This document shows, one piece after another, positions 25,600-39,736 of a DNA stretch of 39,736 nucleotides. How positions within the stretch are numbered: the first letter of the stretch is position 1; the number at the start of each line of letters is the position of its first letter. Made by a program: the position numbers and the translations under genes. The notes under the pieces are model-generated. The model saw only the letters and a program-made list of their open reading frames with translations. It ran no database searches and was not told where the DNA came from. Origin of the DNA: Cyanobium sp. Prado107 (GTDB taxonomy: Bacteria; Cyanobacteriota; Cyanobacteriia; PCC-6307; Cyanobiaceae); contig JALOOQ010000002.1 of NCBI GenBank assembly GCA_025454305.1, forward strand, positions 1-39,736, written 5' to 3'.

Positions 25600-26205
25600 T
25601 CAGGCAGCGGACCTGGCTTCGCCCTCGATGTCGAGCCGGTCCAGTCGACTGCGGATCGCCTGCAGTTCCGTGAGGATGGCACCGAGCAGCTGCTGGGTGG
25701 CCGTGGAGGGCGCGTTGAGCACCTCGACGGTCACTTCCTTGATGCGCAGCACATCCCGGGCGAAACGGGCGACCTCGTTGGGGTGGAACAGCAGGGGATC
25801 CTTCTGGTCGCTGCGGTACTCGGGGTTGAGCCGGCGTGGGTTGAACGCCGGGTTGAGGTTGCGCGGGTCGGTGTTGGTGTAGCGATACACCGATGCCCTG
25901 GAGCGGCTCAGCGCTTTCTGCACCTCATCGATGCCGAGCAGGCTGGTTGAGGAGTCACCGCCTCCGGCCGCCTCGGCAGAACCCACACCGGCACGCTCCG
26001 GATCTGGGAACCCCGCCCTGGAGGAAGGGTCTGGGTCGGGGTGGATCACCGGGTTATGCGCGCCGTGATTGAGCACGCCGTTGCCGGCGTGATTCAGAAG
26101 GCCGTTGCCGGATTGAGCGGTGTGCACGGGATCTGAATGGCCAGGAACGGACTGGAGATGGGGGGAGCGGCCCAGGGAATCGAAGCTGCCTGGGCTGGTG
26201 GCCAT
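25600..26205 (-). CDS. resolvase-HTH-like DNA-binding protein with low-complexity N-terminus
   Basis: LLGIDEVQKALSRSRASVYRYTNTDPRNLNPAFNPRRLNPEYRSDQKDPLLFHPNEVARFARDVL; HTH-like EVQKALSRSRASVYRY; C-terminal coiled-coil-like ILTELQAIRSRLDRLDIEGE. Confidence 0.65.
   Translation of the reverse strand: MATSPGSFDSLGRSPHLQSVPGHSDPVHTAQSGNGLLNHAGNGVLNHGAHNPVIHPDPDPSSRAGFPDPERAGVGSAEAAGGGDSSTSLLGIDEVQKALSRSRASVYRYTNTDPRNLNPAFNPRRLNPEYRSDQKDPLLFHPNEVARFARDVLRIKEVTVEVLNAPSTATQQLLGAILTELQAIRSRLDRLDIEGEARSAA
26064..26111 (-). repeat. 24-bp tandem duplication in resolvase-HTH-like gene
   Basis: cgtgattgagcacgccgttgccgg / cgtgattcagaaggccgttgccgg (3 mismatches of 24); encodes a GNGLLNHA/GNGVLNHG-type octapeptide repeat. 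Confidence 0.8.
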
Positions 26206-35728: not shown

Positions 35729-38020
35729 TCAGAGCACCAGCGGGTCGGGGTCGATCGCCAGCCCCACCGCGGCGGGCAGCATGCGCCGCAGCTCCGCTTC
35801 CGCGGGCAGCGGCAGCGGGCTGGCCGCCGGACCGTGGAGCAGCAGCTGCCAGCGGCTGCGTCCCGCCACCCGGGCCACCGGTGCCGGTGCCGGTCCGATC
35901 ACGCACCAGCCCTGCAGCCGGGCCGCCGGCAGGACGCTCTCGGCCACGGATGCCGCGGCGGTGGCCGTGGCCGAGGCGCTGTGGCCACTGAAGCGCAACA
36001 GGCAGGCACGGCTGAAGGGCACCAGCCCGCCCTGGCGCCTGAGCTTCAGTTCCTCTTCCAGGAAGCGGCCATAGCGGCCATCCACCAGATGGCGGATCAC
36101 CGGATGTCCGGGGCTGTAGGTCTGCACCAGCACTTCCCCGGGCCGCTCACCCCGTCCCGCCCGCCCCGCCAGCTGCAGCAGCAGTTGCAGGCACTGTTCC
36201 CCCGCCCGCAGATCCGGCCGGTGCAGCAGACCGTCGGCCGCCAGCACCACCGCCAGCGTCACCCGCGGCAGGTCCATCCCCTTGGCGAGCATCTGGGTGC
36301 CCACCAGCACATCCGCTTCACCGTCCGCGAAGCGCTGCAGCAGCACACGATGGGCGTCGCGGCCGCGGGTGGTGTCGCGGTCGAAGCGCAGCACCCGCAG
36401 CCCCTCCAGCTCCCCCGCCAGCTGCTCCATCACCCGCTGGGTGCCGGCCCCGAAGGGCTTGAAGGCGGTGGAGCCACAGTGGCCGCAGCGCTCGCCCAGT
36501 TCAGCCCGGTGGTCGCACCAGTGGCAGCGCAGCCACTCCCGCCCGCCCCGTGAGCGGTGCACCGTCATCGCCACGTCGCAGTGGGGGCAGAGCACCGCCT
36601 CACCGCAGCTGCGGCAGCTCACGAAGGCGTGATAGCCACGCCGCGGCACCAGCACCACCGCCTGCTCGCCCCGCTCGCGCAGGGCCGCCAGCCGCTCCAT
36701 CAGCGGGCGGCTGAGCAGGCGGCGGTGCCCTTCGGCCAGCTCCTGGCGCATGTCCACCACCCGCACGGGCGGCAGGGGGCGCCCGCCGATGCGCTGCGGC
36801 AGGCGCAGCAGCCGGGTATCGGCCTGGGGCCCCTGGCAGGCCAGCCAGGTTTCCAGCGATGGGGTGGCGCTGCCCAGCAGCAGCCGCGAGCCGCTCAGGC
36901 GCGCCCGCAGCCGCGCCACGTCGCGGGCGTGGTAGCAGGGCATGGGGCTCTCCTGCTTGTAGGAGCTGTCGTGCTCCTCATCGAGCACGATCAGGTCCAG
37001 GGCGGGCAGCGGCAGGAACACCGCCGAGCGCGTGCCCACGGCCAGCAGCGGAGCACCGCTGAGGCAGCGGCGCCAGGTGCTCACCCGGGCACCTTCAGCC
37101 ATGCCGCTGTGGAACTCCACCACCTGCGCTCCGAAGCGCTCGCGGCAGCGGTCGAGCAGCTGGGGGATCAGGCCGATCTCCGGCGCCAGGATCAGCACGC
37201 TGCGGTCGCGTCCCAGGCTGCGGGCCGCGGCCTGCAGGTACACCTCCGTCTTGCCCGCGCCGGTCACGCCCCAGAGCAGCAGGGCCTGGGCGGCCGGGGC
37301 GCTGTCGATGACCTCGAGGGCCTCCGCCTGGGCCGCCGTGAGCTGGCGGCAAGGCACCGGCGGGGACGGTTGCGGCGGGACGCTGTCGACGCCGGTGCTG
37401 CCGTCCTGCCCGTCCGCAGCATCCCGGGGTGCGGGCCCCCGTTGCCGGCACACCAGCCCGCGCCGCTCCAGCGCCTGGACCACCGAGCGGCTGAAGCCGT
37501 CCCGGCCACAGACGCTGCGCAGGGGCAGAGGGGCTCCGGCCCTGCGGAGGTGGTCCAGCAGATCCCGCTGGCGTCGGCTGAGCTGCTCCTCGCCTCCTGC
37601 GGCAGGTGCCTGGCTGATCCCGAGGTACCAGATCGGTGACGGAACGGAGCTCCTGCCCTGGCGGCGTTGCCCCAGCCACCCGGGGGGCAGCGCGCTCTTG
37701 AGGGTTCTGAAGCGACTGGTGTGGCAGCGATCCGCCACGGCCGTGATCAGCTGCTGCCAGCTTCCGTCAACGGCCGCTGGCTGCAGCAGCCGTTGCACGG
37801 GCCGCAGACGGCGTGCCGCGAGATCCGGCGGTGGCGCGGTGAGGATCTCCACCACCAGTCCCGCATGGCTTCTGCCCTGCAGACCCACCTCCACCAGATC
37901 GCCGATGGCCAGGGGCAGGCCGTCGGGGTTGGCGTAGGTGAACACCTGGCCTTCCCGCCCGGCCTCCACCCAGATCTGGAGCCAGCCGGGGATGGATTTG
38001 CTTGCGGTGCTCACCGCCAC
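35729..38020 (-). CDS. priA: primosomal protein N' (replication restart helicase)
   Basis: LLWGVTGAGKTEVYLQAAARSL; LIVLDEEHDSSYKQ; zinc cysteines CRSCGEAVLCPHCDVAM...CHWCDHRAELGERCGHCGS; GTG start at 38020 or 38014. Confidence 0.95.
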   Translation of the reverse strand: MAVSTASKSIPGWLQIWVEAGREGQVFTYANPDGLPLAIGDLVEVGLQGRSHAGLVVEILTAPPPDLAARRLRPVQRLLQPAAVDGSWQQLITAVADRCHTSRFRTLKSALPPGWLGQRRQGRSSVPSPIWYLGISQAPAAGGEEQLSRRQRDLLDHLRRAGAPLPLRSVCGRDGFSRSVVQALERRGLVCRQRGPAPRDAADGQDGSTGVDSVPPQPSPPVPCRQLTAAQAEALEVIDSAPAAQALLLWGVTGAGKTEVYLQAAARSLGRDRSVLILAPEIGLIPQLLDRCRERFGAQVVEFHSGMAEGARVSTWRRCLSGAPLLAVGTRSAVFLPLPALDLIVLDEEHDSSYKQESPMPCYHARDVARLRARLSGSRLLLGSATPSLETWLACQGPQADTRLLRLPQRIGGRPLPPVRVVDMRQELAEGHRRLLSRPLMERLAALRERGEQAVVLVPRRGYHAFVSCRSCGEAVLCPHCDVAMTVHRSRGGREWLRCHWCDHRAELGERCGHCGSTAFKPFGAGTQRVMEQLAGELEGLRVLRFDRDTTRGRDAHRVLLQRFADGEADVLVGTQMLAKGMDLPRVTLAVVLAADGLLHRPDLRAGEQCLQLLLQLAGRAGRGERPGEVLVQTYSPGHPVIRHLVDGRYGRFLEEELKLRRQGGLVPFSRACLLRFSGHSASATATAAASVAESVLPAARLQGWCVIGPAPAPVARVAGRSRWQLLLHGPAASPLPLPAEAELRRMLPAAVGLAIDPDPLVL

Positions 38021-38040
38021 TTCATAGGATGGGTGCGTTG

Positions 38041-38058
38041 GGCAGTTCAATGACTGCC
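38041..38058. promoter_or_regulatory. 6-bp inverted repeat upstream of priA
   Basis: GGCAGT-tcaatg-ACTGCC. Confidence 0.3.
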
Positions 38059-38329
38059 GTCGGAACCCGACAGAGTTCCGTCCAGAGGGAAGACTCGAAG
38101 AGTTCGCCGGTGTCCGGGCCTTCGTGGCCGGGATTCTCTGGCCTGCATCTCCAGTCTGCGACCACCCCTGCCGATCCTGTCGCGGCCACCGCCAATTCCC
38201 CGTCCCGTTCTCCAGGCTGTCCTGTTTTCCCAGGTTTCCTGCGTCTGTTCCCAGATCCTGCAGCCCACCCGGCAGCAGGGTTCCCGGAAGATTCCGGTTC
38301 CTTGCGGCCATGGTCACACCGTGTGCCCG

Positions 38330-38413
38330 TGAGCCACTGATGTTCAGCCAAGGCTCCTCAGCCACGGCCCTTCAGCCATGCCCCCTCAGCCACTGCTCGT
38401 GAGCTGACCCTGG
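38330..38413. repeat. 14-bp-period imperfect direct repeat array (4 good units plus 2 degenerate flanks)
   Basis: TGAGCCACTGATGT / TCAGCCAAGGCTCC / TCAGCCACGGCCCT / TCAGCCATGCCCCC / TCAGCCACTGCTCG / TGAGCTGACCCTGG, contiguous at exact 14-bp steps. Confidence 0.85.

Positions 38414-38494: not shown

Positions 38495-39736
<1,242 letters not shown>

Follow-up and report, generated by a model that had tools for sequence, protein, structure and literature searches.

The rpoD gene of Cyanobium sp. Prado107, which encodes the principal sigma factor, is preceded by a short tandem array of 14-bp units. The question raised by this locus is whether the array acts on the gene or only occupies the sequence in front of it. 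The window analysed here is a stretch of 39,736 nucleotides from contig JALOOQ010000002.1 of assembly GCA_025454305.1, a draft genome of 242 contigs and 87.9% completeness, and it stops inside rpoD. The comparisons described below point to two separate elements within the rpoD leader. The array is likely a lineage-specific tandem expansion in an unconstrained distal part of the leader and would itself do little or nothing, and the functional part of the leader would be a structured RNA at positions 38036–38182.

Structure and significance of the repeat array

The array comprises six units, starting at positions 38330, 38344, 38358, 38372, 38386 and 38400. The middle four begin with TCAGCCA and the outer two with TGAGC, and both the coordinates and TRF bear out the initial annotation of four heptamers at exact 14-bp spacing between degenerate flanking units. 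TRF delimits the repeat at 38344–38392, with a period of 14, 3.5 copies, 82% matches and a score of 63. The copies of CGTGAGC noted at the two ends of the array are indeed found 70 bp apart, at 38328 and 38398, and the proposed distance to the gene is likewise correct: 81 bp separate the end of the array at 38413 from the rpoD ATG at 38495. An assembly error within the repeat is conceivable, though at 84 bp the repeat is short. When the intergenic region was shuffled 2000 times with dinucleotide composition kept, no shuffle reached the 14-bp self-match of the array at any period from 5 to 30. A TRF score of at least 63 occurs somewhere in 21 of 200 whole-window shuffles, and 357 kb of the source genome yield 26 repeats scoring at this level with the array counted, most of them with periods that are multiples of three. 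The array is far above local chance, yet its TRF score is not extreme for a GC-rich genome.

Predicted position of the array in the rpoD leader

The identification of the downstream gene as rpoD is upheld by the alignment of the 414 amino acids encoded in the window with orthologues in all 13 genomes of the genus. Elements of a predicted promoter, matching TTGC and TA-N3-T hexamers (Table 1), stand at near-constant spacing ahead of the structured RNA in 13 of 13 genus genomes and in almost every one of 70 family loci. The −35 part of the promoter overlaps the first codons of the divergent gene priA, and part of its conservation may be coding. A generic promoter scan found no promoter, because its consensus is stricter than TTGC-N17-TAGGAT. 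The rpoD transcript is predicted to start at about 38036, which would place the array 294–377 nt from the 5′ end of a leader about 459 nt long. The initial annotation had assigned the array to the probable promoter or 5′ UTR; with the conserved promoter at its present position, the array would lie about 295 nt inside the leader, so that the second assignment stands as a prediction and the first does not, the predicted promoter being about 300 bp further upstream. We found no intrinsic terminator between 38000 and 38600.

Table 1. Coordinates of genes, predicted elements and repeats at the priA–rpoD locus (positions in the window)
Feature	Position	Strand	Remarks
priA, divergent neighbour	35729–38014	−	GTG start at 38014
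Predicted rpoD promoter	38002–38030	+	TTGCGG 38002–38007, 17 bp, TAGGAT 38025–38030
Conserved structured leader RNA, predicted 5′ end of rpoD mRNA	38036–38182	+	covariance models R1 and R2
Hairpin P1	38041–38058	+	38041–38047 with 38052–38058; all 7 pairs changed on both sides in 70 sequences
Hairpin P2	38061–38080	+	38061–38066 with 38075–38080; variable loop; 95.5% of cells paired, few changes
Pseudoknot, P2-loop strand	38068–38073	+	CGACAG
P3, 5′ strand	38083–38095	+	CAG-N-GGGAAGACU
P3, 3′ strand	38153–38170	+	AGUCUGCGACCACCCCUG; compensatory changes
Pseudoknot, 3′ strand	38177–38182	+	CUGUCG; fourth pair co-varies G-C/A-U
14-bp-period direct repeat	38330–38413	.	four TCAGCCA-N7 units (38344–38399), flanked by degenerate TGAGC units
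rpoD, principal sigma factor	38495–39736	+	cut by contig end

The array in related genomes

Among the 13 genomes of the genus that were compared, the array is missing from the rpoD leaders of all 12 other than the source. The initial annotation had held that close relatives lacking the repeat, with no effect on rpoD expression, would speak against a function, and the sequence half of that expectation is what the priA–rpoD leaders of the relatives display. The nearest relative, G009, has an RpoD that is 92% identical, and its pairwise alignment with the source carries a 53-bp gap exactly on the array between conserved, unique flanks. The 5′ leader is nearly invariant in this alignment, and the stretch preceding the array is moderately conserved. 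The leader measures 459 nt in the source genome against 402 nt in G009, a difference of about 4 × 14 that the insertion of four 14-bp units would account for. Two TGAGC motifs lie about 17 bp apart in G009; such a pair probably served as the seeds from which slippage or unequal recombination produced the array. We regard the array as recent and its function as probably nil.

The distal part of the leader is variable in other lineages as well. The median leader length is 365 nt over 79 measurements, in which some genomes are counted twice. The distance from the 5′ end of the RNA to the start codon ranges from 230 to 690 nt across the measured leaders; the start codon behind the longest value, 693, was placed without confidence, and four loci gave no value. 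In several lineages the distal stretch contains unrelated tandem repeats with periods of 13, 15, 16, 17, 20 and 30: the repeat unit is 20 bp long in G056, 30 bp in G003 and G004, and 13–17 bp elsewhere. Within the source genome, the search suggested by the initial annotation placed the exact TCAGCCA-N7-TCAGCCA pattern at the rpoD locus only. A match to three array units with at most two mismatches was obtained in 19 of 400 family genomes, the source among them; the TCAGCCA-like arrays of the other 18 have mostly different units and contexts and were not accepted as counterparts.

Alternative roles of the array

Two points bear against near-neutrality. The heptamer TCAGCCA is intact in four units while the other seven bases vary, a pattern that selection on the heptamer could explain instead of very recent copying. 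A secondary promoter nearer the array is also possible, the transcription start being a predicted one.

In the mRNA, the array might serve as a repeated site for an RNA-binding protein or a small RNA that tunes rpoD translation in this species. Its predicted transcription from the promoter upstream would suit such a role, and the heptamer repeats found in leaders of Beggiatoaceae have been suggested to act as post-transcriptional sites (PMC4679880). We consider this role unlikely, as the array is not conserved in relatives, the folding predicted for the array stretch is unremarkable (z = −1.27), and the genome holds no further copies. The heptanucleotide direct repeats of cyanobacteria and Beggiatoaceae (for example TAACTGA; PMC4679880) resemble the array in being short, intergenic, sometimes near start codons and variable between related strains. 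In those repeats, however, 7-bp units follow one another directly and recur at many loci in a genome, whereas in the array a heptamer of different sequence alternates with seven variable bases at one locus. With a 14-bp unit conserved in one half, and without dispersed copies, the array falls outside the STRR and TAACTGA-type repeats.

The first reading offered by the initial annotation was that the units are binding sites, repeated in the DNA, for a regulator of rpoD transcription. Successive units separated by a 14-bp step lie on different faces of B-DNA, which is one argument against this reading; it also finds no support in the comparisons, since none of the 12 genus relatives has a counterpart at the locus, the spaced heptamers are confined to this one place in the genome, and the array is some 295 nt downstream of the conserved predicted promoter instead of at or upstream of it. 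Four exact heptamers at fixed spacing near an essential gene speak for such sites, and we still hold the reading to be very improbable. A contingency-type spacer, varying between strains and setting rpoD output by its unit number, would agree with the tandem structure and with the between-species length difference of about four units, but is likewise very improbable; the units have diverged (82% match) and slippage is therefore probably slow.

Lineage-specific tandem expansion thus remains our preferred account, and of the three readings offered by the initial annotation it is the slippage-variable spacer that fits best. The remaining one, a structured leader, holds for the locus and fails for the array: the structured stretch is the RNA at 38036–38182.

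A conserved structured RNA at the predicted 5′ end of the rpoD mRNA

The leader RNA takes up roughly the first 150 nt of the predicted leader. It contains the hairpins P1 and P2, the long-range helix P3 and a pseudoknot that involves the P2 loop, together with invariant internal-loop bases. It is represented by two covariance models, R1 for the first 70 nt and the fuller R2 with 131 positions. A second conserved block downstream of the first model, GGUCUGMGANNNCCCCUG, pairs with CAG-N-GGGAAGAC to form the long-range helix P3, which was independently recovered by RNAalifold. The compensatory changes in P3 turn CAG/CUG into CAC/GUG and CAA/UUG, and GAC/GUC into GGC/GCC. RNAalifold also paired the P2 loop with CUGC further downstream, which corresponds to the pseudoknot. 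The fourth pair of the pseudoknot is Watson–Crick in 59 of 66 sequences against 40.8 ± 2.7 after shuffling, a value reached in 0 of 2000 shuffles; L223 and L224, which are close relatives, are distinguished by a G-C/A-U double change at this pair. For the helices of the R1 model, the observed covariation was reached in 0 of 500 shuffles and slid controls were far lower. All helices taken together have 12 pairs changed on both sides, against 4.0 in shuffles, which keep relatedness, and at most 4 in slid controls, which are the fairer comparison. Compensatory changes, and a conserved location ahead of a single gene and on its strand, give the segment the character of a structured cis-regulatory leader.

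Distribution of the leader RNA

The R1 model matched 79 of 101 family genomes, nearly always in one copy, and gave only weak matches across the wider phylum. R2 found exactly one copy in each of 61 genomes of the order, all from one family and 15 genera, and 60 of the copies were near complete. Applied to 27 genomes that were weak or negative with R1, R2 matched 14, one of them marginally, and so picked up genera absent from the R1 results. Part of the sequences behind R2 came from those groups, and for some of them the result is therefore not blind. With the sensitivity used, no R2 match was obtained in genomes of 90–99% completeness from genus g9 and in single genomes of g19 and g49; several other R2 negatives are incomplete genomes. 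Among 194 genomes of the phylum, R2 produced 13 strong matches, all within the family, and in about 180 genomes outside it the RNA was not found, save for one weak, unchecked match in a distant genome (6e-4). The rpoD loci of Microcoleus and Chroococcus had no match to the RNA, and a search for cyanophage copies of the leader by one strict pattern found none.

All 70 fetched loci contain the RNA; priA flanks it in 69 of them and rpoD in 68, and the two loci without rpoD are short stretches. In further loci rpoD adjoins the RNA in 13 of 14, the rest being a weak match or a short stretch. Wherever gene order was checked, it is priA–RNA–rpoD. The RNA also lies upstream of rpoD in the Prochlorococcus loci L051–L053 and in an uncultured Synechococcaceae locus (L054), and it is present in essentially every Prochlorococcus/Synechococcus-type genome examined.

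Novelty and possible function of the leader RNA

Novelty was judged against Rfam 15 and open-access papers. A comparison with Rfam 15 gave no match for the window region or for seven other leaders, and the open-access literature searched, including papers on non-coding RNAs of these bacteria, makes no mention of an rpoD leader in Prochlorococcus or Synechococcus. The leader RNAs described in marine cyanobacteria, namely psaA, psbNH, PhotoRC-I, glnA, Downstream-peptide, Cyano-1 and Cyano-2 (PMC2864571), are likewise conserved structured RNAs upstream of genes in the same bacterial group, but none of them matches the rpoD leader. The 5′ end of the rpoD mRNA in Prochlorococcus, marine Synechococcus, Cyanobium and their relatives may plausibly be an uncatalogued pseudoknotted regulatory RNA, present once per genome, which responds to a protein or metabolite and adjusts the amount of principal sigma factor.

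Such an RNA would control rpoD in cis through a bound protein or small ligand, during or after transcription. We infer this mode of action from the sequence comparisons, because the RNA is single-copy, is specific to one strand and one gene, sits where the mRNA is predicted to begin, and has a fold with invariant bases in its internal loops. No intrinsic terminator is nearby, and several hundred bases usually separate the RNA from the start codon; the RNA may therefore, speculatively, act through the stability, processing or elongation of the transcript and not by direct masking of the start site. Alternatively, the leader segment might be released as a small RNA. Riboswitches share with the rpoD RNA a compact multi-helix 5′ leader, a pseudoknot and invariant internal-loop bases; the rpoD RNA differs in always lying upstream of the same single gene where checked, and the search for an expression platform found no intrinsic terminator between 38000 and 38600. 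The autoregulation of E. coli RNase E through the rne 5′ UTR (PMC10989929) likewise involves a long structured leader on a gene for a central enzyme of gene expression, and serves here as a functional model only.

In the most abundant photosynthetic organisms of the ocean, the gene for the principal sigma factor would then start with a conserved structured RNA. Regulatory proteins are few in these bacteria, and a leader RNA on rpoD would offer a direct, testable handle on the global setting of transcription. The repeat array itself is ordinary.

Other repeats and reading frames at the locus

A minus-strand priA frame at 35729–38365 extends 117 codons upstream of the likely start at 38014, across the rpoD leader and into the array. 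This longer version was rejected: PriA homologues align from residues 1–12 of the 761-aa version and thus begin near 38014. Automatic annotation could overextend priA here. A peptide repeat or upstream ORF was also discarded as an explanation of the array, as the frame that crosses it from an upstream ATG is not kept in G009, where no ATG is found.

Further 14-bp-period arrays, with CAGCC-like or other units, occur in family genomes at L041 ~1501–1570 (G048), L048 713–789 (G304), L045 ~1501–1560 (G117) and L046 ~1501–1600 (G070), and two of the four directly follow an apparent stop codon. The source genome has other 14-bp tandem duplications with unrelated units at L135 19647–19690, L144 18056–18115, L148 14858–14885 and L169 3199, and at least some of its short duplications of this length lie outside obvious coding context. 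Seven exact 14-bp duplications were counted in 527 kb of the source genome, at least two of them in apparent coding context, against one or two per 400 kb in each of two relatives; these small numbers from one genome are suggestive of a genome-wide excess of 14-bp periods. The top TRF score in the window belongs to a 24-bp tandem duplication at 26064–26111, whose period is a multiple of three and which is probably coding.
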